From Alkalibacillus almallahensis (GTDB taxonomy: Bacteria > Bacillota > Bacilli > Bacillales > Alkalibacillaceae), in NCBI RefSeq assembly GCF_011761495.1, contig NZ_JAASRU010000001.1:186001-250000 (forward strand): DNA of 64,000 nucleotides, read 5' to 3'. A program made the position numbers and the translations under genes. The notes under the pieces are model-generated. The model was not told where the DNA came from, searched no databases, and worked only from the letters and a program-made list of their open reading frames with translations. Positions 47,544 through 62,699 of this stretch are shown in pieces. Within the stretch, counting starts at the first letter, position 1. Each line of letters starts with the position of its first letter.

Positions 47544-47813
47544 ATGATTGAAGTTAATGTTGATCAAGACACTGTCGAGAAGTTGACAAAAGACGAAATA
47601 CAGAAGCGGCTCAATGAAGCCGACTTCGATTTGGTCTTATGGGATAAACATGAATTGACCCGTCGTACTTGCATGAGTTGGTCTACCATTCAAAAGACGT
47701 TCTTTTATCATCCAGACTGCCCGAAAGTGAAGCTTGGCGGTAAATGGTACTTCAAAGCTGAGGAAATGAAAGATTTTCTATTGAAGTGGGTTGAAGAGCA
47801 AAAGGAGGATTAA
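47544..47813 (+). CDS. DUF771-like phage DNA-binding protein
   Basis: An 89-residue protein with a C-terminal helix-turn-helix and beta-wing pattern (WSTIQKTFFYHPDCPKVKLGGKWYFKAEEMKDFLLKWVEEQ). This resembles DUF771/excisionase-type phage proteins. It follows the Cro-like gene and the fourth operator. It could be an excisionase or an early regulator; the sequence does not decide. Confidence 0.75.
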   Translation: MIEVNVDQDTVEKLTKDEIQKRLNEADFDLVLWDKHELTRRTCMSWSTIQKTFFYHPDCPKVKLGGKWYFKAEEMKDFLLKWVEEQKED

Positions 47814-47815
47814 AC

Positions 47816-48031
47816 ATGATCACAACTTTTTTAGGTGGTGCACAAAAGGTTGACATAGAAGCGGAACAAAATCGCATTCTATTCAAAGTAATGGATAACA
47901 AAACAAACACGGTGATGTTTTCTGTACCGATTGAGAAAGCAGAGCATTTCATGAAAGCTTTTAATGCTGAGTATCAGATGGCAGTTGGACCTAGTGAAAA
48001 GGAAGGTGAGTTAAATGAAGAAGACATCTAA
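47816..48031 (+). CDS. Hypothetical phage protein
   Basis: A 71-residue protein (MITTFLGGAQKVDIEAEQNRILFKV...). It begins two bases after the preceding stop, with AAAGGAGG in the previous gene as its site. Not recognised. The acidic end overlaps the next start by 17 bp, which suggests a coupled early cassette. Confidence 0.65.
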   Translation: MITTFLGGAQKVDIEAEQNRILFKVMDNKTNTVMFSVPIEKAEHFMKAFNAEYQMAVGPSEKEGELNEEDI

Positions 48032-48203
48032 TCAATCTGATGAAGAGAAGCTATATTGCGATCAATGTGGTCATGAATTGCACTTAGGAAAGTCATTCAA
48101 ACATCAAAACCACAAAATGATTAAGACACGATGCGCTAACGATGACTGCCATGTCATTGGAAGCACTATTTACACAAGGGAGGATGAATATGTACAAGAC
48201 TAA
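48015..48203 (+). CDS. Small zinc-ribbon-like phage protein
   Basis: A 62-residue protein with two Cys pairs (YCDQCGHEL ... RCANDDCHVIG), consistent with a zinc ribbon. It overlaps both neighbours. No homologue is recognised; single-ribbon proteins of this kind are common in early phage regions. Confidence 0.65.
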   Translation: MKKTSNQSDEEKLYCDQCGHELHLGKSFKHQNHKMIKTRCANDDCHVIGSTIYTREDEYVQD

Positions 48204-48273
48204 AAGCTTATGGCCAGATGCGGTAGCTTGTACGATTGCGATTTCAACATTTTTATATTTTATAAGCCTATAA
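48190..48273 (+). CDS. 27-residue hydrophobic micro-ORF
   Basis: ATG 48190 opens a 27-codon frame (MYKTKSLWPDAVACTIAIST...) with a membrane-spanning hydrophobic C-terminal half. GGGAGGA lies six bases upstream and the frame overlaps the zinc-ribbon gene. It could be a real small membrane peptide; there is no other support. Confidence 0.45.
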   Translation: MYKTKSLWPDAVACTIAISTFLYFISL

Positions 48274-48288
48274 AGGAGTGTAATCACA

Positions 48289-48399
48289 TTGGCACCTGAA
48301 TTTATTTACAAACGTAATGAAAGCAAGCGTCAAGCGTTTCAACAGTTTAAGAATAATCAAGCTGAATTAGATCGGTTACGAAAGGAAGGTCGATTATGA
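48289..48399 (+). CDS. 36-residue charged micro-ORF
   Basis: TTG 48289 opens a 36-codon frame (MAPEFIYKRNESKRQAFQQF...) with a helical, charged sequence. AAAGGAGTG lies at 48273-48281, about ten bases upstream. Its TGA overlaps the next ATG (ATGA). Not recognised. Confidence 0.45.
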   Translation: MAPEFIYKRNESKRQAFQQFKNNQAELDRLRKEGRL

Positions 48400-48470
48400 A
48401 TTACAGATTACAAGGTATAACAAGCGCTCTAGCATTAGCGTTACTGGTTTTGATTGTGAGTTATTTTTAG
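48396..48470 (+). CDS. 24-residue hydrophobic micro-ORF
   Basis: ATG 48396 opens a 24-codon frame (MNYRLQGITSALALALLVLI...), one membrane helix. It overlaps the previous frame by four bases (ATGA), and GGAAGG lies upstream. It looks like a coupled small membrane peptide. Confidence 0.45.
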   Translation: MNYRLQGITSALALALLVLIVSYF

Positions 48471-48484
48471 GAGGGTGAAACGAA

Positions 48485-49090
48485 ATGAGTAAAGTGACAT
48501 TGACACATGAGCAGTCGACAGCAATCGAAATATTAAAAGAAACAGGCATTTCGTTTAATGGTTATTTAGAGCAAAAAGTTAGGAATGGTTTTGAAGAGAA
48601 TAAGAACAACTGTTTAAACAAATTAAGACACGAAGAATTTGCAAGGGCATGGATTGAAGGTTATGAGGTTGAATCGCAGTTTGAAGTTGGTGACGTAGTA
48701 TCGAAAATAAGTGGTGCAGAATTTATTTCGGGCGACATAATAGGTGAAGTTGACAAAATAAGCAGCGGAGAGGCTAAGTACCATATAAAACGTGGTGCAT
48801 TTGTTCGCGGGAAGGACATCAGACACGCAACCGAACTCGAAAAACAGTTCTATGCGTTAGGACGGAAAAAGCCGAAGTTGGAAGTAAATGATTTGTTCAT
48901 TGATGAAGACGACACACCCTTTAAAATTGCAACATTCAATACTCTTTACAGTGGAAACCAGTTGAACAAAATGAGTAAAGGAACAGCCATACAGTTATTG
49001 AAGTGCAATAAAATTAAATACATCTACCCAATCGAGCATCGCATTGAAGTAGGTGATAATCAAGAACTACTAGATCGTTTGAAACAATAA
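48485..49090 (+). CDS. Hypothetical early phage protein
   Basis: A 201-residue soluble protein (MSKVTLTHEQSTAIEILKETG...). A central EFARAWIEGYEVE segment recalls DUF1642-type phage proteins, but I would not assign it. It is preceded by TAGGAGGGTGA. The role is unknown. Confidence 0.7.
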   Translation: MSKVTLTHEQSTAIEILKETGISFNGYLEQKVRNGFEENKNNCLNKLRHEEFARAWIEGYEVESQFEVGDVVSKISGAEFISGDIIGEVDKISSGEAKYHIKRGAFVRGKDIRHATELEKQFYALGRKKPKLEVNDLFIDEDDTPFKIATFNTLYSGNQLNKMSKGTAIQLLKCNKIKYIYPIEHRIEVGDNQELLDRLKQ

Positions 49091-49098
49091 GAAAAACT

Positions 49099-49119
49099 AT
49101 GAATCTATTAATGATTCAT
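49099..49119. repeat. ATGAATC/GATTCAT dyad (copy 1)
   Basis: ATGAATC (49099-49105) and GATTCAT (49113-49119) around a 7-base centre, just upstream of the next gene. A near-identical dyad is at 50,831-50,852. Confidence 0.5.
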
Positions 49120-49136
49120 GAAGAGGAGGTGTCAAA

Positions 49137-49403
49137 ATGAGCAGTGCTAAAAAGCAAGAATTGAGTTGGACGATTGAAGTCGAAGAACGTTGTGTGAATG
49201 ACTCACTCAAATTACTAAATCAGTACACTCGCATAAAGCAATATGAACAAGCGCTTAGAGTCAATCAAGATATTGAGCGTTCATTAAAGCGGATCCAAAA
49301 GCTAAAGGATGAAGCTGGGTATGTTGATTACTTGGAAGGCATAGTAACAAAGATGGAACAAGACGGAATCGAATCTGATGTCACTTATAGCACAAAAAAA
49401 TAA
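49137..49403 (+). CDS. Hypothetical helical phage protein
   Basis: An 88-residue helical protein (MSSAKKQELSWTIEVEERCVND...) with heptad-like spacing (YEQALRVNQDIERSLKRIQKL). GAGGAGGTG precedes the ATG. Not recognised. A small hairpin follows. Confidence 0.65.
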   Translation: MSSAKKQELSWTIEVEERCVNDSLKLLNQYTRIKQYEQALRVNQDIERSLKRIQKLKDEAGYVDYLEGIVTKMEQDGIESDVTYSTKK

Positions 49404-49428
49404 CCGCTCGGCAAAGCGGTTAAATTTG
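49401..49428 (+). terminator. Hairpin after the 49,137 gene
   Basis: Stem TAACCGCT (49401-49408) / AGCGGTTA (49415-49422), followed by AATTTG. A weak terminator. Confidence 0.5.
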
Positions 49429-49527
49429 AAAGACTGGTATATTCCAATGTTCGCATAACACGGAGTACCTATATTAAACCATGTGATGATTAAGAAAATC
49501 AAGTGGTGAATGAAAGGAGTGAACAGA

Positions 49528-49698
49528 ATGCCATTGTTCGACCCGAATCATGAAAAAAGACAAGAGCAGCAGCTGACTGATTTCATTTGTCGTTTTGCTA
49601 GAGATGAAAAGTTATCTCAAGAACAATTAAACGAATTGCTTTCCAGAGCGGAGAGTCACGTTTATGATCTTTATCATTCAGACGCTGTAATAAAATAA
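49528..49698 (+). CDS. Hypothetical small phage protein
   Basis: A 56-residue helical protein (MPLFDPNHEKRQEQQLTDFI...). ATG 49528 follows GAAAGGAGTG; an upstream ATG at 49510 precedes that site. Not recognised. Its stop is followed at once by a bidirectional terminator. Confidence 0.6.
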   Translation: MPLFDPNHEKRQEQQLTDFICRFARDEKLSQEQLNELLSRAESHVYDLYHSDAVIK

Positions 49699-49722
49699 CC
49701 CGCCTATTTAAAGGCGGGATCG
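49699..49722. terminator. Bidirectional terminator between convergent phage genes
   Basis: CCCGCC (49699-49704) pairs with GGCGGG (49713-49718). On the minus strand the stem is followed by TTATTTTATT, so it mainly serves the convergent minus-strand gene. Confidence 0.7.
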
Positions 49723-49724
49723 CA

Positions 49725-49940
49725 TTAATCAGAACTGCAATTAGGTGAACAATATCTACAACCGTCAAACGGCTTAAGAGGGTGATCTCTTTTAGCGGAC
49801 CTAATAGCTTCGTGACAGTCGTTCTTGAAACCGATGTAGGTTCGGTTATCCCGATCAGCACCTTGTCCACAGTCTCTTTCGTGCACTTCGTGATTTCCGT
49901 TCTTGTCAATGTTGTTATTAAAGTAGTAATGTTTTGCCAT
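49725..49940 (-). CDS. Small Cys-rich protein of a conserved phage/bacterial family
   Basis: A 71-residue minus-strand gene among plus-strand genes. The sequence NGNHEVHERDC... FKNDCHEAIRSAKR... DGCRYCSPNC resembles a widespread short family (YYVNKNAQxNGDHEVH..C...CxWCxPxCH) of unknown function. GGGAGGTG lies eight bases before the ATG and a hairpin follows the stop. Independent transcription and reverse orientation suggest a moron-type gene. Confidence 0.75.
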   Translation of the reverse strand: MAKHYYFNNNIDKNGNHEVHERDCGQGADRDNRTYIGFKNDCHEAIRSAKRDHPLKPFDGCRYCSPNCSSD

Positions 49941-49951
49941 TTTTACACCTC

Positions 49952-49981
49952 CCTTCCTGTTAAGGTATTTCGACAGGAAGG
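49952..49981. repeat. Inverted repeat over two divergent ribosome-binding sites
   Basis: CCTTCCTGT (49952-49960) and ACAGGAAGG (49973-49981), 12 bases apart, between the minus-strand Cys-rich gene and the antirepressor. The left arm overlaps the minus-strand gene's ribosome-binding site. Confidence 0.55.
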
Positions 49982-50012
49982 AGGAAAATCCTACAAAGGA
50001 GTGTCAATTTCT

Positions 50013-50747
50013 ATGAATCAATTAACAAAGATTTTTGAAGGACAAGAGTTAAGAATTATTGAGAAGGATAATGAACCTTGGTTTGTTGCTAAAGATGTTT
50101 GCGAGATTTTAGATCTAAGCAATCCAACTAAAGTCGTTAGCCGATTAGATGAAGATGAACGGTCTAACTTCAAGTTAGGTCGTCAAGGTAGCGTAAATGT
50201 AGTTAATGAATTCGGTCTATACAATCTAGTTCTAGGTAGTAGAAAACCGGAAGCAAAGAATTTTAAACGTTGGATCACACATGACGTTATTCCAGCAATC
50301 AGAAAAACAGGTTCTTATAACCAACCACAGTCTCAATTAGAAATACTGCAACAATCTGTTAATCAGATGGTCGAACAGGAGAAGCGGTTAACAGCAGTTG
50401 AAGAGAAACAGGATAACATTAACGAATTACTTAGTCTTCACCCGAATGAGTGGCGTAAAAAGGTTAATAAAATTATTAATCAGATTGCGCAAGAACGTGG
50501 CGGATTTGGCGCTTATAAAGATGTGCGAAAAGAGAGCTACGAGATTTTAGAAGAAAGAGGGAAGTGCCAGTTGTCCATTAGGCTCACTAATCGTAAACGT
50601 AAAATGGCGTTTGAAGGGGCTTCTAAATCCAAAATAGATAAAACGACCAAGATGGATGTTATTGCTGATGATGCTAGATTGACTGAGATTTATTTATCTG
50701 TAGTTAAGGAAATGGCAATAAAAAATAACGTTGATATGGCGGTGTAA
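50013..50747 (+). CDS. BRO-family antirepressor with ORF6C domain
   Basis: A 244-residue phage antirepressor. The N-terminal BRO-N domain reads QELRIIEKDNEPWFVAKDVCEILDLSNPTKVVSRLDEDE and FGLYNLVLGSRKPEAKNFKRWITHDVIPAIRKTG. The C-terminal part after about 125 resembles ORF6C. The start is ATG 50013 after AAAGGAG; a longer upstream frame would run antisense through the Cys-rich gene and is rejected. It probably opposes the lysogeny repressor or regulates early genes. Confidence 0.88.
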   Translation: MNQLTKIFEGQELRIIEKDNEPWFVAKDVCEILDLSNPTKVVSRLDEDERSNFKLGRQGSVNVVNEFGLYNLVLGSRKPEAKNFKRWITHDVIPAIRKTGSYNQPQSQLEILQQSVNQMVEQEKRLTAVEEKQDNINELLSLHPNEWRKKVNKIINQIAQERGGFGAYKDVRKESYEILEERGKCQLSIRLTNRKRKMAFEGASKSKIDKTTKMDVIADDARLTEIYLSVVKEMAIKNNVDMAV

Positions 50748-50765
50748 CAATGATTTATCACAAAT

Positions 50766-50816
50766 AAAAAGCGACGGCACTTATAACTGATAGGACAAGT
50801 GCACATCGCTTTTAAA
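50766..50816 (+). terminator. Hairpin after the antirepressor
   Basis: Interrupted stem AAAAGCGA..GCACTT / AAGTGC...TCGCTTTT, followed by AAAATTATT. It separates the antirepressor from the replication gene. Confidence 0.65.
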
Positions 50817-50830
50817 ATTATTAGAAACCT

Positions 50831-50868
50831 ATGAATCTTTTAAATGATTCATCACGATAGATCGTGAT
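50831..50868. promoter_or_regulatory. Tandem dyads upstream of the DnaD-like gene
   Basis: ATGAATC/GATTCAT (50831-50852) overlaps by two bases a perfect palindrome ATCACGAT-AG-ATCGTGAT (50851-50868). Together they look like a protein-binding region. The rest of the stretch to 50,947 holds no gene. Confidence 0.5.
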
Positions 50869-50950
50869 CAAACCAAGCTCAACAATTATATTGTACAACA
50901 ACGAGCAACGTTTGTCACGTCTATCCCCTATTAAAAAGGAGGTGCAAATG

Positions 50951-51880
50951 ATGAAGGGCTTCATCAAAGATTATCGTCAAGAATTAGACAGTCTGATATG
51001 GTCCATGCCGCCTATGTACCATCGTGTTTGGCAATACCTGAAATATATGGTTAACCACGAAGAACGAAAGGTCCCATTTAAAGACGGTAGCGTTATAACG
51101 GTTAGGCCAGGGCAACATCTTACTTCCGTTCGCAATATTGCTAAAGGGGTCGGTTATTACGAAGGTGTCACGTGGAAAGAGCCTAATCCTAAAACAGTCC
51201 GAACCATTCTCCAATGGTTAGAAAAACAGTCTATGATATCAGTAGAACGTGGTAAGGGTAACAGACAATACACACTTATAACCTTGTTAAATTGGGAAAC
51301 GTACCAATCCCAATCTGTTTCAAGTAACACAAAAGAAACAGAACGTAACCCAGAAGTGAAACAGGTCGCGGACATAAACAAGAATGTAAAGAATGAGAAG
51401 AATGAAGAAGAATTATCTAATAATAATAACACGCGTGATCGAGAAGCGTTTGCAGAAATTATTGAATTCTACAAAAACAACTGCCAACAAGGTATAACGG
51501 AATCGCCTTTTAACTTCGAAGTCATAGAAAAGCTATTTGACGAATGGGGCTACGAACTCCTAATGGCATCTATGCAAGTGGCTGCACAAAAAGAAGCTAA
51601 AGGCACGCGGTTTATTGAAAGCGTCTTAGACAACTGGAAAGGTGCAGGTGTTCAGTCAATTGACGATGCTAGACGTTACCAACAGCAGTTCCGTGAAAAT
51701 AAGCAAAAAACGAAGCAGTCACGATCGTCTCCTAAACAAACGTCAGACGTTATACCAAAGTGGTTTGCTAAGCATAAAGAACAAAGACAACAAGAGCAGC
51801 AAGAATCAACGCAATCGAATGAAGCGGAAGAACCAGCCAACGTGACGGACTTAAAGGCATTCTTCCATGGCACTCAATAG
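50951..51880 (+). CDS. DnaD-like replication initiation protein
   Basis: A replication protein of the phage DnaD/DnaB_2 type. The N-terminal half (DYRQELDSLIWSMPPMYHRVWQYLKYMVNHEER... KTVRTILQWLEKQSMI) is a winged helix. The DnaD C-terminal domain has the signature ESVLDNWKGAGV near residues 232-246. A Gln-rich tail follows. The ATG at 50951 (or 50948) follows AAGGAGGTG. Length is about 309 residues. No DnaC-type helicase loader is seen after it. Confidence 0.85.
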   Translation: MKGFIKDYRQELDSLIWSMPPMYHRVWQYLKYMVNHEERKVPFKDGSVITVRPGQHLTSVRNIAKGVGYYEGVTWKEPNPKTVRTILQWLEKQSMISVERGKGNRQYTLITLLNWETYQSQSVSSNTKETERNPEVKQVADINKNVKNEKNEEELSNNNNTRDREAFAEIIEFYKNNCQQGITESPFNFEVIEKLFDEWGYELLMASMQVAAQKEAKGTRFIESVLDNWKGAGVQSIDDARRYQQQFRENKQKTKQSRSSPKQTSDVIPKWFAKHKEQRQQEQQESTQSNEAEEPANVTDLKAFFHGTQ

Positions 51881-51901
51881 ATTAAAAGAAAGGGTGAACA
51901 T

Positions 51902-52186
51902 ATGACACGCCACAAAGGTGAATTCAGAACAGACACCAAAGGCACCTATCACACACTGGATCCAGAAGAAGATTGGGTCATCATTTTAGAAAATAAAGAG
52001 TTTGCTTTCAGAAAGCAAGATTTAAAATACATTGAGCAACAGTACAACGAAGGACACGAACCGGAAGTTATTGCTAAGGGATTAAAACGAGACGAATGGG
52101 AAGTGCTATTTGCCCTTTGCCACTTGGCTATTAAGGGACGTGATATTCGTGTATTTGCGGAACGAAAGAGGGTAATGAACGCATGA
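51902..52186 (+). CDS. Hypothetical phage protein between DnaD-like gene and RusA
   Basis: A 94-residue protein (MTRHKGEFRTDTKGTYHTLDPEEDWVI...) with a helix-turn-helix-like second half (IAKGLKRDEWEVLFALCHLAIKGRDIRVFA). The ATG follows AAAGGGTGA, and the stop overlaps rusA by four bases. Not recognised; it may assist DNA replication or recombination given the neighbours. Confidence 0.7.
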   Translation: MTRHKGEFRTDTKGTYHTLDPEEDWVIILENKEFAFRKQDLKYIEQQYNEGHEPEVIAKGLKRDEWEVLFALCHLAIKGRDIRVFAERKRVMNA

Positions 52187-52611
52187 TTGCATTCACGATA
52201 CACGGACAACCTGTTGCGCAAGGACGAGCAAGAGCAACCACATTTAAAGGTCAAGCGCGCATGTACGATCCAGCTAAATCAAAACACTATAAACATTACG
52301 TGCAACTAAGTGCTGCACAACATAAACCTAGCAATCTATTTAAAGGGCCTATTGATCTAACGGTTAGGGTTTATCGACCCATTCCTAAATCCATGCCGAA
52401 ATACAAACGCAAGCTGATTGATGAGGGTCAACTAAGACCAACAACCAAACCTGATGTCGATAATTACCTGAAAGCAATCAAAGACGGATTGAACGGCATT
52501 ATATGGCACGACGATAGCCAAGTCGTTAACGTCCACATTGAAAAATACTACGACGATCAACCTCGTGTTGAAGTTGAAATTCGTGAATGGGAGGCAGACA
52601 CATGCACTTAA
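52183..52611 (+). CDS. rusA: RusA-family Holliday junction resolvase
   Basis: RusA resolves Holliday junctions during phage recombination and packaging. The family pattern is clear: FTIHGQPVAQGRAR, KPDVDNYLKAIKDGLNGIIWHDDSQVV with the catalytic Asp residues, and the C-terminal VHIEKYY. Length is 142 residues. The start overlaps the preceding gene by four bases. GAAGCGG-rich genes follow. Confidence 0.92.
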   Translation: MIAFTIHGQPVAQGRARATTFKGQARMYDPAKSKHYKHYVQLSAAQHKPSNLFKGPIDLTVRVYRPIPKSMPKYKRKLIDEGQLRPTTKPDVDNYLKAIKDGLNGIIWHDDSQVVNVHIEKYYDDQPRVEVEIREWEADTCT

Positions 52612-52853
52612 CCATGATGCAAAAAGCGGTCTTAACCTATATCGAACGGTTCCAGGATAAACACGGATATGCCCCGTCGCAACGCGAAATCACATCAGGT
52701 ATTAACCTTAAATCCGCTTCAACGGTTCATGGCCACTTAGAAAGATTAGAAGAAAAAGGTTTTATTAAGCGCAAACAGTTTAGCCCAAGAGCATTAACCA
52801 TCTTAGTTAGGAGTGATGAAGCGGATGAGAGAACCATCAACGTTAACACGTGA
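52602..52853 (+). CDS. Stand-alone LexA-type DNA-binding domain
   Basis: An 83-residue winged helix closely resembling the N-terminal domain of LexA (MQKAVLTYIERFQDKHGYAPSQREI... SASTVHGHLERLEEKGFIKR). The S24 protease and dimerisation domain is absent, and the frame ends in a normal stop. ATG 52602 follows GGGAGG, overlapping rusA by ten bases. It could bind host SOS boxes without being cleavable, or act as a phage regulator; both are inference. Confidence 0.8.
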   Translation: MHLTMMQKAVLTYIERFQDKHGYAPSQREITSGINLKSASTVHGHLERLEEKGFIKRKQFSPRALTILVRSDEADERTINVNT

Positions 52854-52983
52854 GGATATGATTGAAGAACTCGTCTCTTATGGTCATGATGCTTCAATTT
52901 TGGAGCACTTAAGCTATAACAGATTAGCAAGCAAATTAAGTGTTGAACGTGCAAAAGATATTCGAGAACATCCTTGGTTCTAG
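52825..52983 (+). CDS. Hypothetical 52-residue phage protein
   Basis: ATG 52825 opens MREPSTLTREDMIEELVSYG... with TAGGAGTG about ten bases upstream; ATG 52816 is an alternative start. It overlaps the LexA-like gene in another frame. A GAAGCGG heptamer directly precedes the start. Helical, acidic, not recognised. Confidence 0.6.
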   Translation: MREPSTLTREDMIEELVSYGHDASILEHLSYNRLASKLSVERAKDIREHPWF

Positions 52984-52995
52984 TAGGTGAAGCGG

Positions 52996-53193
52996 ATGGA
53001 CAGACAAAAGCAAATATTAGGTGTTAAACAAGCATTGATCGAGTGCTATCTCCATCATGAATCCAAGCAAAAAGTTAGCTACCATCACGAAGTACGCACC
53101 AAAGAAGTTAAGCAGCTATACGACAGCATGTTTTCTGATTTTCAAACAAAACTTGAACAAGTTAGGCGGTGGCAAGATGAGCTCGGAAGTTAA
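52996..53193 (+). CDS. Hypothetical small phage protein
   Basis: A 65-residue basic, helical protein (MDRQKQILGVKQALIECYLHHE...). ATG 52996 follows TAGGTGAAGCGG, a copy of the heptamer. The stop overlaps the next gene by 17 bp. Not recognised. Confidence 0.6.
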   Translation: MDRQKQILGVKQALIECYLHHESKQKVSYHHEVRTKEVKQLYDSMFSDFQTKLEQVRRWQDELGS

Positions 53194-53329
53194 AACCTAT
53201 CGATTGTCGGATGACGAATTAGCAGAGCTGCATAGAACGAACCCACCAAAGCACAAACCCTATCACGTTAAAGACTGGCGCTGGCATAAGCCGAAAGACG
53301 AAAAAGCCCAAAACCATAAATCGAACTAG
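53177..53329 (+). CDS. Hypothetical small phage protein with SEVKTYRL start
   Basis: A 50-residue protein (MSSEVKTYRLSDDELAELHR...) with many Lys, His and Trp residues. The first 15 residues resemble the N-terminus of the coiled-coil gene at 57,319 (SDVKTYQLDEAEHAKI). The longer frame from 53,057 is shadow of the preceding gene. Not recognised. Confidence 0.55.
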   Translation: MSSEVKTYRLSDDELAELHRTNPPKHKPYHVKDWRWHKPKDEKAQNHKSN

Positions 53330-53373
53330 GAACCGCTTCATGCGGAAACATTGAGCATAAAGGTGGCGGTAAC

Positions 53374-53502
53374 ATGGCGAAATCAACAAATAAGCGATAT
53401 GTGAAAGAAGATAAGAACCGAAACCAGGACGGAGAACTCCTAACGACCGTCAACGTGTATAAGAGTAAACCTAAAGATTTTGACTATATTGTGTTTGTTT
53501 AA
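53374..53502 (+). CDS. Hypothetical 42-residue phage protein
   Basis: ATG 53374 opens MAKSTNKRYVKEDKNRNQDG..., with an AAAGGTGGCGG site eight bases upstream. Basic N-terminus and a short beta-like end. Not recognised. It begins after a minus-strand copy of the heptamer (CCGCTTC at 53,333). Confidence 0.55.
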   Translation: MAKSTNKRYVKEDKNRNQDGELLTTVNVYKSKPKDFDYIVFV

Positions 53503-53516
53503 ATGAGGTGTGTTTA

Positions 53517-53738
53517 TTGGAGAAGATATTGCTTCGGTGTGCTGTATGCAATCGAAAGTTAAAAGATAACGAATCTATTGATCGTGGTGTTGGTCCAATC
53601 TGTCAAAAACACTTAGATCATAAAACGCTAACGATCGTAAAAGAATCAGTATTACTAGGTTTTCAGCCCGTTATGATTCATGAGGGAGCGATAGAGTTAT
53701 CGATTCCGGAAAGTGAAGCAGAAAACATAAAGCAGTAA
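53517..53738 (+). CDS. DUF6011-like zinc protein
   Basis: A 73-residue protein with RCAVCNRKLKDNESIDRGVGPICQKH, the Cys-rich signature of DUF6011-type phage proteins (CxxCxxxL...G+GPxC). TTG 53517 lies about six bases after GAGGTGTG; a GTG at 53508 is inside that site. Function unknown, probably metal-binding. Confidence 0.7.
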   Translation: MEKILLRCAVCNRKLKDNESIDRGVGPICQKHLDHKTLTIVKESVLLGFQPVMIHEGAIELSIPESEAENIKQ

Positions 53739-53750
53739 GGAGGAACCAAT

Positions 53751-53975
53751 ATGCCAAAAGAATATGCCGTTTATCAAGGTGATGATCTATTGGTTATGGG
53801 GACGAAGGAAGAGTGTGCTGAAGAATTAGGCATCACACCTGACAGTGTTAAATGGTTAGCAACTGCTTATAACGTGAGACGTGTCGAAAAATTAACCAGA
53901 CCAAAATTAGCTAAAGTCGCTGTATCTATAGATTTAAAAGAATTAGAAGAAGATGATCTCGCAAGCTATCAATAA
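53751..53975 (+). CDS. Conserved small phage protein
   Basis: A 74-residue protein (MPKEYAVYQGDDLLVMGTKEECAEELGI...). The YAVYxGD-xxxxGTxEECAxxLGI pattern is recurrent in siphophages of Firmicutes. A helix-turn-helix-like middle (GITPDSVKWLATAYNVRRV) suggests nucleic-acid binding. AAGGAGGA precedes the ATG. Confidence 0.7.
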   Translation: MPKEYAVYQGDDLLVMGTKEECAEELGITPDSVKWLATAYNVRRVEKLTRPKLAKVAVSIDLKELEEDDLASYQ

Positions 53976-54024
53976 CCAAGTCACATGTTAACTTCTGTGG
54001 CTTATGATGCGAAGGAGTGAAACT

Positions 54025-54123
54025 ATGAACCAATGTGTTGAGTGCAAAAAACGTGCTGCAAGGTACTGGGGAAGTTATTTGTGTGAGACGTGCTTTCGGA
54101 AGTTCTTAATCGAAAAAACATAA
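54025..54123 (+). CDS. 32-residue zinc-ribbon peptide
   Basis: ATG 54025 opens MNQCVECKKRAARYWGSYLC..., with CxxC...CxxC spacing of a tiny zinc ribbon. GAAGGAGTGA lies about seven bases upstream. Short, but the spaced Cys pairs and the site support it. Confidence 0.55.
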   Translation: MNQCVECKKRAARYWGSYLCETCFRKFLIEKT

Positions 54124-54139
54124 TTGGGAGGCTTTATAA

Positions 54140-54505
54140 ATGAAGACGGTAACTGAAACGGGTTGGAAGGTAGTTCAGGTTAATGAGAGTGAAATATTGG
54201 CTTGCAATGGAGCCGTGACTTTCGAGCGAATCGAAAATTGGTATAACGAAAACGTAACAGACACCAGGGTAGAAAGCATGGAATTAAAGGATGTGGAAAA
54301 GGACGGGTTAGTGACACCCATTAACGAGTTCGGTGAAAAAGACAGCGAGGAAGTGTTTAAGCTACTTAAAGATGTTGAAAGTCCTGATCAATTAGAGAAA
54401 AACAATGGTAGTTGGGTGATCTTTGATAAATATAAAGACGTCGTAGAAAGACTTGAACATAACTCCGATGAAACAATCGTCGTTATTGGTTACTCAAACG
54501 TTTAA
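54140..54505 (+). CDS. Hypothetical acidic phage protein
   Basis: A 121-residue acidic protein (MKTVTETGWKVVQVNESEILACNGAV...). GGGAGG precedes the ATG by nine bases. No motif recognised. Small acidic phage proteins can be DNA mimics, but nothing here proves it. Confidence 0.65.
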   Translation: MKTVTETGWKVVQVNESEILACNGAVTFERIENWYNENVTDTRVESMELKDVEKDGLVTPINEFGEKDSEEVFKLLKDVESPDQLEKNNGSWVIFDKYKDVVERLEHNSDETIVVIGYSNV

Positions 54506-54545
54506 CAGGATTGCATGACATGAAGCGGAAAGTGGTGATTAAACG

Positions 54546-55324: not shown

Positions 55325-55329
55325 AATAC

Positions 55330-55521: not shown

Positions 55522-55525
55522 TTAA

Positions 55526-55669: not shown

Positions 55670-55681
55670 GGGAGTGATTGA

Positions 55682-56038: not shown

Positions 56039-56347
56039 ATGACAGCTCGATCAAAAATGAGAGGCCACGACATTGAGTACACTAACGGTCAATGGGTTTA
56101 TTCGGATACGAAAGAACCAACTTGTGAAGTAGGAAAACAGAATCAAAATAGAGAGTGCGGGTATTGCGGATCATGGGCTACACCAGAAGGTCATGACGCA
56201 TGTCTGGGTACATTAATAGGAACTATGAATGCTTGTTGTGGTCATGGTCGAACGAATGAAGCTTATGTTCAATTATTAGATGGTACATGCATAAGAGGTC
56301 AAAACGCTTTAGAATTAGCTGAAATTTTAAGGAAGCGGAGTGATTAA
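56039..56347 (+). CDS. Conserved Cys-rich phage protein
   Basis: A 102-residue protein with ECGYCGSWATPEGHDACLGTLIGTMNACCGHG, a Cys/His set likely to bind zinc, and the DGTCIRGQNALELAEIL end. This pattern is common in Bacillales phages. AAGGAGGA precedes the ATG. Function unknown. Confidence 0.7.
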   Translation: MTARSKMRGHDIEYTNGQWVYSDTKEPTCEVGKQNQNRECGYCGSWATPEGHDACLGTLIGTMNACCGHGRTNEAYVQLLDGTCIRGQNALELAEILRKRSD

Positions 56348-56632
56348 ATGAGTGAAGAGTTAGAAGAAGTAAAGCAGAGGCTTTCTGCTACTGTACTGAG
56401 AGTAGCTAGAAGTAACGGAAAAACTCATTTTTCTAACGATATTCGATGGCTTATAAAACAAGCTGAACGTGTTGAGGAATTGGAACAAGAGAATAAGCGG
56501 TTACGTGAAGCGTTAAAATTTTATGCAAACGGAGAACACTTGATTTTTGCGTGGAGTACAGGCGAATTTGAAGGGGAAGAAGGGGAAACAGCAAGACAAG
56601 CGTTAGAGGAGGATAACAATGAATCTAATTAA
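56348..56632 (+). CDS. Hypothetical coiled-coil phage protein
   Basis: A 94-residue protein with a helical heptad region (LIKQAERVEELEQENKRLREALKFYANGEH), similar in character to Ead/Ea22-like phage proteins. It overlaps the dUTPase gene by 14 bp. GAAGCGGAGTG lies before its ATG. Confidence 0.65.
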   Translation: MSEELEEVKQRLSATVLRVARSNGKTHFSNDIRWLIKQAERVEELEQENKRLREALKFYANGEHLIFAWSTGEFEGEEGETARQALEEDNNESN

Positions 56633-57191
56633 ACTATTTGAAGCGCAGCGTGAGCTTGATCAACACATAATATACAGCAAACCTCATTTAAAAGAAGAGG
56701 ATGTATTACCCAGAAAAATACTAGCATTGCAAGTTGAGTTGGGTGAATTAGCAAATGAATGGCGAGGCTTTAAATTTTGGAGCGAGGACCAGGATCCGAG
56801 AAGGGTCAAAAGATCTATTGCTTTTTCTGATCCGGGAGGCCCGTTCGAGCAATTCACTTATCCTCTCTTAGAAGAATACGTTGATTGCTTACATTTTTTA
56901 ATTAGCATCGGGATTGAATTAGCCGTTAACGAAAAACAGATTAATCGAGAAGCAATCCTAGCAAGAGATATCTCAATAACCAACCAATTCTTATACTTAA
57001 ACAAAGCCGTATCAGGATTATACTGGAACGCAACGCAAGAATACGCAAACAACGCTCAAAACGTTTGGGAAAAGGTTTATAGGAACTTCTTGCTTTTAGG
57101 ATCTTATCTCGAATTTAACAGTGAACAAGTTGAACAAGCCTACTTCGATAAAAACCAAGTCAATCACGATCGACAAGAGAGTGGTTACTAA
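56619..57191 (+). CDS. Dimeric dUTPase
   Basis: An all-alpha dUTP diphosphatase (dUTPase_2 / MazG-like) of 190 residues. Metal-binding ExxE and ExxD motifs appear in ALQVELGELANEWRGFKFW and LEEYVDCLHFLISIGIEL. The enzyme keeps dUTP low during phage replication. A GGAGGA site precedes ATG 56619. The stop overlaps the next micro-ORF by one base. Confidence 0.88.
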   Translation: MNLIKLFEAQRELDQHIIYSKPHLKEEDVLPRKILALQVELGELANEWRGFKFWSEDQDPRRVKRSIAFSDPGGPFEQFTYPLLEEYVDCLHFLISIGIELAVNEKQINREAILARDISITNQFLYLNKAVSGLYWNATQEYANNAQNVWEKVYRNFLLLGSYLEFNSEQVEQAYFDKNQVNHDRQESGY

Positions 57192-57313
57192 TGCGTGAAA
57201 AGGGCGACAAGTATAGACCAGTCGTAAAAGTTGCTAAAGTCAAGAAAGCCATACCAACTGTCGTTTATATTAGTGGCAGAAGGTATGTGTACGATCCTAA
57301 AAATGAGGAGTGA
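57191..57313 (+). CDS. 40-residue basic micro-ORF
   Basis: ATG 57191 opens MREKGDKYRPVVKVAKVKKA..., very basic, and ends MYDP-like in VYDPKNEE. It overlaps the dUTPase stop and ends six bases before the next start. Not recognised. Confidence 0.5.
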   Translation: MREKGDKYRPVVKVAKVKKAIPTVVYISGRRYVYDPKNEE

Positions 57314-57318
57314 ATCAT

Positions 57319-58074
57319 ATGGCCAATACATCACCACATAGTGACGTTAAAACATATCAATTAGATGAAGCGGAACATGCGAAGATTAAAAAGCAGACTC
57401 CTGACTTCTACGTTAAGAAGCGGGAAGAGGGTTATAAGGATAAGGACATAGCTGAGTTCATGGGAATTCCACAATCAAAACTAAGCACACTTAAGAATGG
57501 ATGGGGCTTTGTTGGTTTAACATTCGACGAAATTAAAAAGCAGCATAATAAAATGAAGCGCAAATCGAATAACACGAAACCTACTCCTGAACCCGCTTCA
57601 GATGCTAAGGACAATGAGAACGACATTGAAGAATCAGCAGACGATCAAGAGAATATTAACGAGGAAACAGCGGAAACCGAACATTCATTCGAAACCCTTA
57701 AAAACGACCTCAAACAGAAGATAGAGGCTAAAGATAACGAGATTGAGAGATTACAGGGTGAAGTTGACCGTTTAACGACCGATTTAAAACAGACTCAAAA
57801 AACACTTAACGGATGCAATGAACACGTCAAGTTCATGGAACACCAACAGGAAGAAGCGGAAAATGAGGACCAGTCAAATCAGGAAAACATTATAAATGAC
57901 TTACGAGTACAGATCGATAAGCTCAAAACAGACATCAAAGAACTAGAGGCTGATAGAGAATGGTATCAACATGAAGCGGACAATGCGTATGAAAGATACA
58001 AGACACTATCTAAACAACAGAGACAAGCAGAGTCTAAAGCCTATCATGCTATTGAATTAATTAAGTTGATGTAG
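57319..58074 (+). CDS. Coiled-coil phage protein with HTH-like N-terminus
   Basis: A 251-residue protein. The first 75 residues include a helix-turn-helix-like stretch (GYKDKDIAEFMGIPQSKLSTLKNGWGFVG). Residues about 110-240 are a long charged coiled coil (AKDNEIERLQGEVDRLTTDL...). The start SDVKTYQL resembles the small gene at 53,177. ATG 57319 follows GAGGAGTGA. It probably binds DNA or scaffolds; not assigned. Confidence 0.7.
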   Translation: MANTSPHSDVKTYQLDEAEHAKIKKQTPDFYVKKREEGYKDKDIAEFMGIPQSKLSTLKNGWGFVGLTFDEIKKQHNKMKRKSNNTKPTPEPASDAKDNENDIEESADDQENINEETAETEHSFETLKNDLKQKIEAKDNEIERLQGEVDRLTTDLKQTQKTLNGCNEHVKFMEHQQEEAENEDQSNQENIINDLRVQIDKLKTDIKELEADREWYQHEADNAYERYKTLSKQQRQAESKAYHAIELIKLM

Positions 58075-58086
58075 GGTGGTGAAGCG

Positions 58087-58431
58087 GTGTACACGAAAGA
58101 ACAACAGCTGGGTAAACGTAAAAGCAGGAAACAAAAAGATAAAACACGTATTACAGCTAAAGTGAGAAAAGAAGTGAAACGTCGTTCAGGTGGAAAGTGC
58201 GAACGATGCGGAATTACAAATCCTTGGATGTTTCAAATGGCTCATTTAGAACAAGCGAGCCATGTTGGACCAGGTGATGATCCAACTAATATTGTTCTAT
58301 TATGTGGGCCATCTGTTAACACGGGAACATGCCATGATTTCGCAGACTCCACCAAAGAAGGACGAGAATGGCGCAAGCGGAAACGTCAAGAGCTTATAGA
58401 GTTTTACCAGCATGAAGCGGGTAATAGTTGA
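58087..58431 (+). CDS. HNH-like zinc protein
   Basis: A 114-residue protein with CERCGITNPWMFQMAHLEQASH and later LCGPSVNTGTCHDF. Paired Cys, an Ala-His and a CH end resemble a HNH/zinc-binding nuclease core. A highly basic N-terminus supports nucleic-acid binding. GTG 58087 follows GGTGAAGCGG. The catalytic layout is not classical, so nuclease activity is inference. Confidence 0.65.
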   Translation: MYTKEQQLGKRKSRKQKDKTRITAKVRKEVKRRSGGKCERCGITNPWMFQMAHLEQASHVGPGDDPTNIVLLCGPSVNTGTCHDFADSTKEGREWRKRKRQELIEFYQHEAGNS

Positions 58432-58465
58432 GATTAAATGCATTGAGCAATAAAAGGGTGGTTAA

Positions 58466-58909
58466 ATGGCACAAGCGATCAAACTATCAAAACAAACATT
58501 TAAGAAAATAGAGGCTGAGTGGTTTAACTATCACCAGACATTGAAAGAAATTGCTATGCTGCGTGAAGAGATTCATAACCCACATATTGAACAAACGGAT
58601 GATGAACGGCTTGTGATTGAAGGAAATAAATCAACATTCGAACCCAGTAGTCCAACAGAAAAAATCGCAACGCGTCTTACGACAAACAAACAACTTAATT
58701 ACTTATGCGAAGTGACAGATGCCATTGAACAGGTTTATCAAGCATTACCACATCATCATCAGAAATTGGTACGTGTGCGCTTTTGGAGTAAAAACCGTAA
58801 TCTTACGTGGGATGGCATAGCGGAAGAGTTGAACGTAAGCAGACGACAAGCGATAAGATGGCGTGATGAGATCATACATTTAACGAATGAGGTGTTAGGG
58901 TGGAGGTAG
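58466..58909 (+). CDS. RinA/ArpU-family late transcription regulator
   Basis: A 147-residue protein with the C-terminal helix-turn-helix NLTWDGIAEELNVSRRQAIRWRDEI. This and its place before the packaging genes fit the RinA/ArpU activators, which turn on late (packaging and structural) genes. AAAGGGTGG precedes the ATG. It probably activates the terminase and head operon. Confidence 0.8.
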   Translation: MAQAIKLSKQTFKKIEAEWFNYHQTLKEIAMLREEIHNPHIEQTDDERLVIEGNKSTFEPSSPTEKIATRLTTNKQLNYLCEVTDAIEQVYQALPHHHQKLVRVRFWSKNRNLTWDGIAEELNVSRRQAIRWRDEIIHLTNEVLGWR

Positions 58910-59130
58910 AAAAAGTTATTGTAACGAATATCAATAGAGATTTTAGCACATTGAAGGCTGATGGTGAAACGTTAGTGTATTTTGCTGACGAAGAAGCAGA
59001 AGTTGATTTCATCTATTTAATCAATGGTCATGGGTTTCATTCAAAAACTAGAATGTCTGTTCATTACTTAATGTCGTTTGCGGATATTGAGGATGAAATC
59101 AAAGACATGATGAACGGAAATAGAAATTAG
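58900..59130 (+). CDS. Hypothetical phage protein
   Basis: A 76-residue acidic protein (MEVEKVIVTNINRDFSTLKADG...). GTG 58900 overlaps the RinA-like stop by ten bases. Not recognised. Confidence 0.6.
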   Translation: MEVEKVIVTNINRDFSTLKADGETLVYFADEEAEVDFIYLINGHGFHSKTRMSVHYLMSFADIEDEIKDMMNGNRN

Positions 59131-59154
59131 TATAATAAAGTTTGAGGTGATAAC

Positions 59155-59415
59155 GTGACATGTGATTATTTACTTGACATGATTTTTGAATATGAGCAGA
59201 AAAACAAGGCGAAACCTTTTTTGATCGAAATTAATAAAGAATGTTTACGTGAACTGCAAGCAGACGAAGAAGCAGAACGGTTTTTCGGATTGAGAAGAAT
59301 CACTAAAAGAGATTTCTTTAACACATTTGTGGACGTACCATTAGCAATTACAAACAACACAGATAAAGTGACTTTTCACACCAGAGAAAGTATAGAACGA
59401 AGATTGTCACTATGA
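59155..59415 (+). CDS. Hypothetical phage protein
   Basis: An 86-residue protein (MTCDYLLDMIFEYEQKNKAKPF...). GTG 59155 follows GAGGTGAT. Not recognised. About 200 bp with hairpins and no gene follow. Confidence 0.6.
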   Translation: MTCDYLLDMIFEYEQKNKAKPFLIEINKECLRELQADEEAERFFGLRRITKRDFFNTFVDVPLAITNNTDKVTFHTRESIERRLSL

Positions 59416-59536
59416 TGGCACTTTTAAGCCGCTGGAATCGTTTATTATGATACTATAGCGGATAAACCAAAATATACAAATCGTAAAATCAAATCATCCG
59501 CTATTACGTCTTTTGTTTCGTTATTCTCCTACTTCT

Positions 59537-59568
59537 AAGGTATCACTCATTTGAGTGGTGTCTTTAAA
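59537..59568 (+). terminator. Terminator T1 before the cargo island
   Basis: A hairpin from TATCACTCA / TGAGTGGTG with a GTGTCTTTAAATT end. Similar hairpins follow at 59,890 and 60,781. Confidence 0.65.
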
Positions 59569-59631
59569 TTATTTGCAGGAAAGTATCTCCTTTTGTCGAA
59601 ATGGTTAGTATGATGAGAGGAGGTGTTTACA

Positions 59632-59889
59632 TTGGGACGTTTTACAAAAGTGATTGTAGATGGTTCTAGCATAGAAGGAACAGGTGAAGTGATTAAAGAA
59701 GATAAAACACTATACATTAATAGTGATCATGACGAAATAATCAATTGGTTTATAAGTTTGCTTCGTAATAAAACCGTTCTCAGCAGTTTAGATTTTATAG
59801 ATGAGCCAAATGAAAATGATTATTCATTTGAAGGTGAGTTTTATATCAGAAGCGTCAAAGGTCCAGAAATAGTCATTGAAGAAAAATAG
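59632..59889 (+). CDS. Hypothetical protein between twin terminators
   Basis: An 85-residue acidic protein (MGRFTKVIVDGSSIEGTGEV...). TTG 59632 follows GAGAGGAGGTG; a GTG at 59623 is inside that site. It is flanked by terminators T1 and T2, so it is probably expressed on its own. Not recognised. Confidence 0.65.
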   Translation: MGRFTKVIVDGSSIEGTGEVIKEDKTLYINSDHDEIINWFISLLRNKTVLSSLDFIDEPNENDYSFEGEFYIRSVKGPEIVIEEK

Positions 59890-59918
59890 AACATCTCAAC
59901 ATGAGGTGTCTTTAATTT
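59890..59918 (+). terminator. Terminator T2
   Basis: Stem ACATCTCA / TGAGGTGT (one G-U pair) followed by CTTTAATTT. Confidence 0.65.
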
Positions 59919-59985
59919 ATAATAGAAAAATCATCCAATTAGTGATAAAATCCTATGTAATACATACTTGGGAGGATAATGAACT

Positions 59986-60747
59986 ATGAAAAAAATATTA
60001 TTGATTTTGACGTTAACTGCGATAGTTGCTGGTTGCGGTGATAATGGAGAAACTGAAACTACTGACGGGTCAGGGGAGAGTCAAACAGAATCAGCTAACA
60101 ACACCGAAACAGACAACAGTGAAGATGAAACAACTGATGCTGATACAGAAACAGACTCTGAAACTAGCAATGAAACAGATACTAGCACAGAGGAAGTAGA
60201 ACCTGTCGAGCTGACAGAGGCAGAAAAAACAACAAGAGATTTAGTTTCATTGATGGAAGAAGAAAATGTTTATGACGCTGGATCATATGTAGAAGGTGAC
60301 ATTCCGAAAGGGGAATATGCTTTTGTTAGATTTTCTGGAAGCGGGCAGTATTATGGAGAAGAAGACACAAATGGAAATATAATCGGTAATCATAATTTTG
60401 ATAGCTTCGGTTATGTTCATGTACACAATGCTGGTAATATTACAGCTAGTGCTATACTTGTTGGGATTGATGAATTAGAAGAATTAGGGGTTTCAGGAGC
60501 GAAAGAGCTTTATGAGAAATTAAATAATGAGTCTGATTATAAACAATCAGGATTTTATAAGGTCGGCACAGACATCGAGCCTGGTGAGTATACAATCGAA
60601 AGTGTTGGCCAAGCTTATGTATCTGTTTTGAGTGGTCCTGTTAGCAACAATGAAATAGTTCAAAACAATAATTTTAATGGTAAGTATTCTGTCAATGTAA
60701 AAGAAGGCCAGTACTTAAATATATCTGGTGGAAAAATAATTGAGTAA
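59986..60747 (+). CDS. Prophage-encoded lipoprotein with two repeated domains
   Basis: A 253-residue protein with a signal peptide and lipobox ending VAGC, so lipidated and anchored outside the membrane. A Thr/Glu/Asp/Ser-rich spacer (about 25-80) leads to two related modules: VEGDIPKGEYAFVRF... and VGTDIEPGEYTIES..., each with a D-I-x-(K/P)-G-E-Y turn. GGGAGG precedes ATG 59986, and T2/T3 terminators bound it. It is a good candidate for a lysogenic-conversion or superinfection-exclusion protein; that is inference. Confidence 0.8.
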   Translation: MKKILLILTLTAIVAGCGDNGETETTDGSGESQTESANNTETDNSEDETTDADTETDSETSNETDTSTEEVEPVELTEAEKTTRDLVSLMEEENVYDAGSYVEGDIPKGEYAFVRFSGSGQYYGEEDTNGNIIGNHNFDSFGYVHVHNAGNITASAILVGIDELEELGVSGAKELYEKLNNESDYKQSGFYKVGTDIEPGEYTIESVGQAYVSVLSGPVSNNEIVQNNNFNGKYSVNVKEGQYLNISGGKIIE

Positions 60748-60780
60748 GAAAGACAGGTTAAACAGAATAGATAGGATATT

Positions 60781-60812
60781 AAGACATCTACTCATGTAGG
60801 TGTCTTTTTTAT
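60781..60812 (+). terminator. Terminator T3 after the lipoprotein
   Basis: AAGACATCTAC (60781-60791) pairs with GTAGGTGTCTT (60796-60806), followed by TTTTA. Confidence 0.85.
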
Positions 60813-60842
60813 ATACAAATTTAATTAAAGGAGATGGTGAAC

Positions 60843-61436
60843 ATGGCGGACAATAAGTCGCGCGAAGTAATCGAGTACATCAGACAGAGGGATTTGAGGT
60901 ATAACTTACACACTGTAACAGATCAAACGATTGCAGATGTTATCGAACTGTACGAGGAGTTCAATGGGTTAGAACAAAAGGATAGCAAGAGTGTAGGGAA
61001 ATTCACATTGGATATGGACTGCTCAGAAGCACTTAAAGGATTGAAAGCTGTGCAGCGTGAAGCGAGAAATGCAACGCAATCACTTGCTGAATTTGAACGG
61101 AAAGCAGATCAAGTGCTTAACAAGGAAATCACAATAAGCATGAATGGAACAGACGTTGGGAAAGCGGTAGAAAATAATGTGTCTGAGCTTCATCAATCAA
61201 CGAGCAAAGACAAATTACTAGTTATTGAATTAGATAATGAGGAAAGTGCGCCAAAGGTATTCCATGAAGGGAAAGAGATAACCGAAAAAGTTAGTGTTAG
61301 TTTTGATTGGAGAACAAAAACAGACAGACCTGGCAAGTTATTATTTAATGTTGAGTATTATGAGTTAGATGATAAAGGGTTCCCTAATTTAACAGATGTG
61401 GAGATAGATAGGTTAACTGGTGGTGATCAATCATGA
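60843..61436 (+). CDS. Hypothetical phage protein upstream of packaging genes
   Basis: A 197-residue protein with DCSEALKGLKAVQREARNATQSLAEFERKA, a helical stretch recurring in phage proteins near the terminase. ATG 60843 follows AAAGGAGATGG; ATG 60834 is inside that site. Overlaps the next gene by four bases. The role is unknown. Confidence 0.7.
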   Translation: MADNKSREVIEYIRQRDLRYNLHTVTDQTIADVIELYEEFNGLEQKDSKSVGKFTLDMDCSEALKGLKAVQREARNATQSLAEFERKADQVLNKEITISMNGTDVGKAVENNVSELHQSTSKDKLLVIELDNEESAPKVFHEGKEITEKVSVSFDWRTKTDRPGKLLFNVEYYELDDKGFPNLTDVEIDRLTGGDQS

Positions 61437-61729
61437 AAATACAATGTGAATTAGGTTGCTCAAAAATATTTGAATTAAATGATGTCGCTGCGAAATTTCA
61501 ATACTTACCAAAGAAAGTTGAACGTCACTATATTGAATGTCCTCATTGTCAGAAGCAATATACATCCTATTATTTGAACGAGCCTATGAAAGTGCTCCAA
61601 AGAAAAATTCGTACGTTATCAGAAAAAGGGATGCATACAACCAAGCAGAAAAACAAGTTCACACAAATGAAGGGTCAATTAGGAATCATGATGGATCAAC
61701 TTAAAAAAGATCATGAGGGAAATGATTGA
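61433..61729 (+). CDS. Small zinc-binding phage protein
   Basis: A 98-residue protein with CELGC ... ECPHCQKQY Cys pairs and a basic helical C-terminal half. It overlaps the previous gene (ATGA) and sits three bases before the HNH gene. Proteins of this type often precede the HNH-terminase block; function unknown. Confidence 0.65.
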   Translation: MKIQCELGCSKIFELNDVAAKFQYLPKKVERHYIECPHCQKQYTSYYLNEPMKVLQRKIRTLSEKGMHTTKQKNKFTQMKGQLGIMMDQLKKDHEGND

Positions 61730-61732
61730 GAT

Positions 61733-62101
61733 ATGCCTCAGAAAGCTAAGAAGCCTTGCAAGGAAGTGGGTTGTAATAATTTAACGAGGGAAACCTACTG
61801 CAAAAACCACGAGAAAAACGCACAGGAAATCCACCAAGATTATAATCGATACAAAAGAAATCCAAAATTAAATGCGTTTTATCAATCGAAGGAATGGAAG
61901 CAACTAAGACGGTTAGCTTATGATCGTGACAATGGTTTATGTCAATCGTGCAAACGTTCTGGTATCTTAAAGCAAGCAAACGTTGTGCATCACATTGTCG
62001 AGATCGCAGTCGACTATTCGCTTCGATTGACGCTCGGCAACCTCGAATCATTGTGTCATGCCTGTCACAACAGGTTTCACAAAGGGTCCCCCGACCATTA
62101 A
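61733..62101 (+). CDS. HNH endonuclease of the packaging module
   Basis: A 122-residue HNH nuclease with SKEWKQLRRLAYDRDNGLCQSCKRSG, VVHHIVEI and NLESLCHACHNRFH motifs. HNH genes immediately before terS/terL are a hallmark of cos-packaging HK97-like phages, where HNH aids terminase cleavage. ATG 61733. A 79-bp gap with a GGGTCCCCCGACC tract follows. Confidence 0.9.
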   Translation: MPQKAKKPCKEVGCNNLTRETYCKNHEKNAQEIHQDYNRYKRNPKLNAFYQSKEWKQLRRLAYDRDNGLCQSCKRSGILKQANVVHHIVEIAVDYSLRLTLGNLESLCHACHNRFHKGSPDH

Positions 62102-62180
62102 TTTTTTAGAAAACGAAATCTCTAAAGCGACTCGCCCTCAACATTTTACAAAAATCCGTTTTTGAAAGGAGGTGTGGTGG

Positions 62181-62699
62181 ATGCCAGGGCGTAAACAATT
62201 ACCATTATCTGTTATTGAAGGTAAAGGACGATCCAATCATATAACTAAGGAAGAGGCACGCGAGCGAAAGCAACAAGAAGAACGGATGAAAGCTGACACT
62301 GATAAAGTCGAGCCGCCTAGCTATCTAACCAAAAAGCAGAAGGAAGAGTTTGAAGATATTGCGCAAGATTTAATTGCGTTAGAGATCTTTTCGAATTTAG
62401 ATGTGGATGGCTTAGCGCGTTATCTTGATTCCAGGACAGAATATATACGTGTCGCCAAAGAATTAAAAAAGATAAATCCGGCTGAGCTCGTTGAAACAGA
62501 AGAAGGTCATAAAAAGCGTGTGGCCAACGATCAATATGAAATCCTGCTTCGAGTAAAAAACAAGTTATTCAATGAATGCAAGTCAGCAGCAAGCGAGCTT
62601 GGTTTATCTATCACATCACGACTTAAACTGGTTATTCCGAAACAGGAAGATAAAAAACCACAGTCCGAAGCGGAACGTCGGTTTGGTGATTCTGTATGA
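62181..62699 (+). CDS. terS: Terminase small subunit (P27 family)
   Basis: A 172-residue P27-family small terminase (MPGRKQLPLSVIEGKGRSNHITKEE... GLARYLDSRTEYIRVAKEL... SAASELGLSITSRLKLVIP). It recognises phage DNA and loads the large subunit. ATG 62181 follows AAAGGAGGTG; a GTG at 62172 falls inside the site. It overlaps terL by four bases. Confidence 0.9.
   Translation: MPGRKQLPLSVIEGKGRSNHITKEEARERKQQEERMKADTDKVEPPSYLTKKQKEEFEDIAQDLIALEIFSNLDVDGLARYLDSRTEYIRVAKELKKINPAELVETEEGHKKRVANDQYEILLRVKNKLFNECKSAASELGLSITSRLKLVIPKQEDKKPQSEAERRFGDSV

Follow-up and report, generated by a model that had tools for sequence, protein, structure and literature searches.

Why should a single seven-base word recur so often, and in so confined a place, within a prophage? 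The question is raised by a stretch of 64,000 nucleotides from Alkalibacillus almallahensis (RefSeq assembly GCF_011761495.1, contig NZ_JAASRU010000001.1, positions 186,001 to 250,000 of the forward strand), which we call the window and whose own numbering is used below. The last part of the window is occupied by a prophage, and in that prophage the heptamer GAAGCGG is heavily repeated. This word is the reported Chi of Staphylococcus aureus, where it is read by RexAB/AddAB (PMC11442139), and it contains AGCGG, the Chi of Bacillus subtilis, as a preliminary description of the window had rightly stated. We consider it probable that the copies act as Chi sites for the AddAB of the host, set densely into the region that leads from replication to packaging in a phage that appears to lack a recombinase.

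The window holds 26 plus-strand and five minus-strand copies of GAAGCGG, of which 18 and four lie in the prophage and eight and one in bases 1-45000. The preliminary description, which had counted by eye, gave the same figures for the chromosomal part, placed all 17 of its plus-strand prophage copies correctly while overlooking an eighteenth at 60338, and estimated the minus copies, exactly four, at about four. An order-2 Markov model predicts 1.6 plus and 0.15 minus copies for the 18.7 kilobases (kb) of prophage in the window, and the strong excess is upheld: among all 16,384 heptamers GAAGCGG is the most over-represented in the prophage, and its difference between plus and minus strands is tied for the largest. 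The word had also been described as repeated across the prophage, and this is true of the early region and not of the late genes. Between the repressor gene and terS, the gene for the small terminase subunit (47150-62171, 15.0 kb), there are 17 plus copies against 1.42 expected and four minus copies against 0.10, an observed-to-expected ratio (O/E) of 13.9, with the bulk of the cluster at 47.6-58.4 kb. From terS to the right-hand attachment site, five plus copies (1.80 expected) and no minus copy (0.33 expected) are present, which is near the host background. Eighteen of the 22 window sites fall from the gene of a DnaD-like helicase loader up to the terminase, three lie upstream of these in early genes and one lies inside terS.

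It is the full heptamer, rather than the B. subtilis pentamer within it, that is enriched, because 22 of the 39 NNAGCGG words in the prophage are exactly GAAGCGG; words that differ from it at one position reach at most five copies, against its 22. The enrichment is also independent of codon usage. When synonymous codons were swapped in such a way that proteins and codon usage were preserved (codon shuffling), the early open reading frames (ORFs) were expected to hold 3.3 copies and in fact hold 14, with GAAGCGG ranking first of all heptamers, and in none of 1000 shuffles of the whole region, kept in place, was the observed plus count reached.

A sister prophage in another Alkalibacillus genome, G005 (contig C3, loci L065-L067), is likewise enriched. 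In the 8.9 kb that can be aligned, its early DNA is 91% identical to that of the window prophage; it carries 13 plus and two minus copies, 12 of them shared with the window, with five sites found in the window only and three in G005 only. The shared sites are those on the plus strand at 47603-47609, 52818-52824, 52989-52995, 55259-55265, 55310-55316, 57367-57373, 57417-57423, 57853-57859, 58081-58087 and 58414-58420, and those on the minus strand at 52714-52720 and 53333-53339; the plus copy at 47858-47864 is absent from the G005 prophage. The remaining plus copies are located at 50381-50387 (within the antirepressor gene), 51821-51827 (within the DnaD-like gene), 54522-54528, 56332-56338, 57973-57979, 60338-60344 and 62667-62673 (within terS), and the remaining minus copies at 55944-55950 and 57593-57599. 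Spacing is irregular, ranging from 50 to 2500 bases. The related early modules of the two prophages are joined to large terminases that are only 27% identical, a clear instance of module exchange.

The trait recurs in a distant lineage as well. In G020, a member of another genus of the same family, a prophage whose DnaD-like protein is 38% identical to that of the window, and which shares with it one stretch of 297 bases of similar DNA in 18 kb, has 12 sense and eight antisense sites in 13.2 kb (O/E 27.1; codon-shuffle z 10.8; rank 1). We read the G020 cluster as an independent gain. What the three enriched prophages have in common is the apparent lack of a recombinase: profile searches of the window, G005-sister and G020 prophages found no RecT, Erf, Sak, Sak4 or SSB. 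For the window prophage the RecT profile was negative, no RecT, Erf, Rad52/Sak or Sak4 was detected among early ORFs of at least about 100 amino acids searched against Pfam or PHROGs, in which a very divergent form might escape detection, and ERF is absent from the whole host genome. Resolvases are present, RusA in the window prophage and RecU in that of G020. RecT genes do occur in five other prophages found in this family of hosts, one of them on contig C2 of this genome and another in G005. Two of the five have a YqaJ exonuclease next to RecT, and none is enriched (O/E 3.5, 4.0, 0.9, 0 and 0). Enrichment is thus found in three of three RecT-lacking prophages (O/E 13.9, 11.7 and 27.1) and in none of five RecT carriers (Fisher P 0.018), and prophages in the two opposite states coexist within this genome and within G005. 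G369, a relative by its DnaD from another family, has Erf as well as SSB and shows no enrichment, and the same is true of L039, a RecT carrier.

Whether GAAGCGG is Chi for this host can be approached from the chromosome and from the enzyme. Across 473 kb of the host genome outside the prophage, GAAGCGG counted with its complement ranks first of 16,384 heptamers at maximal Markov order, a model that allows for the counts of all hexamers (94 copies against 58.2 expected); codon shuffling yields a weaker host excess (66 sense copies against 40, z 4.0; antisense z 3.7; rank 132). The whole genome of 2.7 Mb has 655 copies of GAAGCGG and 242 of the reversed word. The same inequality holds in all six Alkalibacillus genomes, but likewise in most genomes of the order, and as the ratio is raised almost everywhere it is by itself unspecific. 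The strand on which the word predominates flips sharply in contig C1 of G005, at 311-339 kb, and flips also in G001, as would be expected of leading-strand polarity, although gene direction and composition may flip with it. The switch in G005:C1 suggests a replication origin or terminus at that place. The host, whose AddB is 98% identical to that of A. salilacus DSM 16460, encodes AddAB (AddB match of 1423.7 bits), and in an alignment to 3u44_B its AddB keeps F68 and F210, which bind Chi in B. subtilis AddB, and E129, the latch partner (PMC4824097). From these data the AddAB of Alkalibacillus probably reads GAAGCGG. The heptamer is identical to the S. aureus Chi and the enzyme belongs to the same family, the Chi role in Alkalibacillus being deduced from word statistics, and the Chi-binding residues are retained as in B. 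subtilis. The Chi interpretation that the preliminary description had put forward hence gains support from the exact match to the S. aureus word, from an AddAB with Chi-binding residues and from a site load that, within the host family, tracks the absence of RecT. The layout is the opposite of that in the S. aureus phages 80alpha, phi11, 85 and 187 (L169, L170, L171 and L173), which have five to eight copies, none of them early. In these S. aureus phages the copies are found in late genes, on the sense strand, and phage 37 has one in total.

The prophage, of about 39 kb, runs past the end of the window. It is inserted at the 3' end of glnA and is flanked by direct repeats at least 30 bases long, attL at 45183-45212 and its partner attR at about 84199 in window numbering (contig C1 270199), outside the window; upon insertion the attachment repeat restores the end of glnA. 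Its genes begin with a tyrosine-recombinase integrase (45345-46496, minus strand; Pfam PF00589) and a CI-like repressor with helix-turn-helix and peptidase S24 domains (46509-47150, minus strand), followed by the antirepressor, the DnaD-like helicase loader (50864-51880, plus strand; PF07261; phrog_2514, E 7.7e-41), the RusA Holliday-junction resolvase (52183-52611, plus strand; PF05866, E 3.9e-41), a dUTPase, HNH proteins and terS (62172-62699, plus strand; phrog_83; PF05119). A protein of 74 amino acids encoded at 53751-53975 on the plus strand matches phrog_803, which is annotated as host nuclease inhibitor. The phage origin is likely to lie in or near the DnaD-like gene and the packaging site near terS. 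When the prophage was compared with phage records by megablast, no match was obtained. Elsewhere, at 15512 and 34196 of the window and in L017, L020-L022, L030-L032 and L036, an interspersed repeat is centered on GGCTCGAGCC and has the arms GCGGAAAGCGTCCACCGAAAGCGG and CTTATTCGATG; the GGCTCGAGCC repeat has several copies across the sampled host chromosome and resembles a small repeat family.

We suggest that the following chain of events would give such a cluster its value. Because it has no detectable recombinase of its own, and specifically none of the single-strand annealing type, the phage would depend on host AddAB and RecA for packageable concatemers and for the repair of broken forks. 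AddAB would enter at a broken end or at a cos/pac end and degrade the DNA until it met Chi, where degradation would stop, a 3' tail would be left and RecA would recombine, and a dense cluster by the origin and the packaging site would bring about the switch within about 1 kb. We infer that selection has acted on the formation of concatemers and not simply on the protection of ends. In work on spacer acquisition by clustered regularly interspaced short palindromic repeats (CRISPR) in S. aureus, Chi sites near the cos end of a phage were reportedly used as AddAB stops. The closest parallel is provided by the recombinase-less lambdoid phages of Escherichia coli, in which Chi is clustered between the origin and the packaging site (Bobay, Touchon and Rocha, 2013; PMC3784561). 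There, as here, Chi is dense between the replication genes and the terminase where a recombinase is absent, and the lambdoid phages that carry a recombinase together with an inhibitor show no excess (PMC3784561). The systems differ in enzyme and word, AddAB and GAAGCGG here against RecBCD and GCTGGTGG there, and in magnitude: the early region of the window prophage has about 1.4 sites per kb, against 0.2 per kb over whole lambdoid genomes, and the O/E in the early regions is 12-27, against a lambdoid whole-genome median of 3.1 (PMC3784561). Our literature search found no report of such Chi clusters for AddAB phages, although the search was limited and others may exist.

Several other explanations have to be weighed. 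The one that comes nearest, and in part overlaps with the Chi-for-recombination reading, is that the main use of the sites is not recombination but the passive shielding of the linear phage DNA end from AddAB, both when it enters the cell and once packaging cuts have been made; we regard this as rather unlikely, though it deserves to be taken seriously. It fits with the placement of 21 of the 22 window sites upstream of the terminase genes, beside the likely packaging end, and with the orientation of 17 of 21, which would be read by an enzyme that came in from the side of the terminase, and end protection has been argued for phages that have a recombinase without an inhibitor (Bobay, Touchon and Rocha, 2013; PMC3784561). 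The preliminary description had likewise taken the strand bias as suited to AddAB protection. That argument has to be given up: minus copies exceed expectation at least as much as plus copies do, so that the bias reflects the composition of the purine-rich coding strand, which by itself would give a bias no weaker than the one seen and leaves no sign of a selected direction. The RecT-carrying prophages, moreover, also have ends and yet carry no cluster. Composition and coding might be thought to explain the excess altogether, through Glu-Ala codon pairs, which the preliminary description had named as a possible full explanation, and purine-rich coding strands. Most copies are indeed on the sense strand, nine of the 14 in-ORF copies read GAA-GCG, and for the 45 kb of chromosome in the window the count of eight is explained by codon shuffling alone (6.6 expected). 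For the early region this explanation is refuted by the codon shuffling given above and by the occurrence of copies in all frames (nine, four and one) and on both strands, the other frames and the antisense strand being enriched too; in addition, one-mismatch words are not comparably enriched, and the late genes, which run in the same direction, stay near background. We assign it a negligible probability.

It is improbable, although less so, that GAAGCGG is a binding site for a phage protein or an RNA signal, concerned with regulation, translation, antitermination or packaging, that matches Chi by chance. Four of the 17 early plus copies are near start codons, a slight excess (P 0.026), as are three of 13 in the sister prophage, and among about 120 loci the enrichment was seen in no more than two lineages of phage. 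The G020 prophage has no such bias (one of 18), however, and neither the irregular spacing nor the presence of copies in all frames and on both strands speaks for a signal of this kind; GAAGCGG is over-represented in the host chromosome too, and relatives that share the DnaD-like gene show no excess of it. The translational or regulatory role at gene junctions that had been offered as an alternative is accordingly weak here and absent from the second lineage. Finally, the early region could have been inherited as part of a mosaic from a source rich in Chi, or the prophage could have adapted to the word use of its host without selection in the phage, and the host chromosome is itself enriched; but 21 copies in 15 kb far exceed the host density of 655 in 2.7 Mb, and the late region and the second prophage of the same genome lie far lower, so that we hold this to be very improbable.

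A number of observations weigh against the proposal that the cluster is a set of Chi sites serving a recombinase-less phage. The window and G005 prophages are not independent, which reduces the comparison to about two lineages against five, and with 12 of 17 sites conserved between them GAAGCGG does not clearly surpass other heptamers, of which 54-59% are conserved. The excess in the host genome of G020 is modest, 2.5-fold at order 2 and rank 1023 at maximal order. Of about 85 IMG/VR loci that carry a related DnaD, TerL or RecT gene, none stands out apart from the enriched prophages already known; the RecT carriers all have an O/E of at most 2.4, but most loci in which no RecT was detected are not enriched either. 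None of 30 DnaD-bearing regions of the order exceeds an O/E of 3.9, with or without RecT, and hence, beyond the host family, enrichment cannot be predicted from a lack of RecT by itself. L090 has no visible recombinase and zero copies of GAAGCGG, and its DnaD is 73% identical to that of G020 over the first 135 residues. The wider survey is confounded by the possible use of another Chi in those hosts and by recombinases other than RecT: Erf occurs in G369, and in L081 we read an AAA_24 protein beside DUF669 as Sak4-like. The phrog_803 match has to be considered as well. Relatives of the 74-residue protein occur in Streptococcus phages, some of them annotated as e12 or host nuclease inhibitor, and if that label were to mean inhibition of AddAB it would conflict with our model, as the E. 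coli scheme pairs an inhibitor with avoidance of Chi.

With these points taken into account, a more general proposal, namely that temperate phages of AddAB hosts carry either a RecT-type recombinase or dense Chi by the origin and packaging site, and that two lineages in halophilic bacilli each acquired clusters of this kind on their own, much denser than those reported for E. coli phages, appears to us evenly balanced between being right and being wrong. If true, it would mean that the trade-off between a recombinase of one's own and that of the host, known from E. coli phages and RecBCD, holds for AddAB phages as well, and it would point to GAAGCGG as the Chi of a group of halophilic Bacillaceae. 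The two prophages of this genome, one RecT-bearing and Chi-poor and the other RecT-less and Chi-rich, offer a natural pair in which the Chi dependence of phage growth may be studied.

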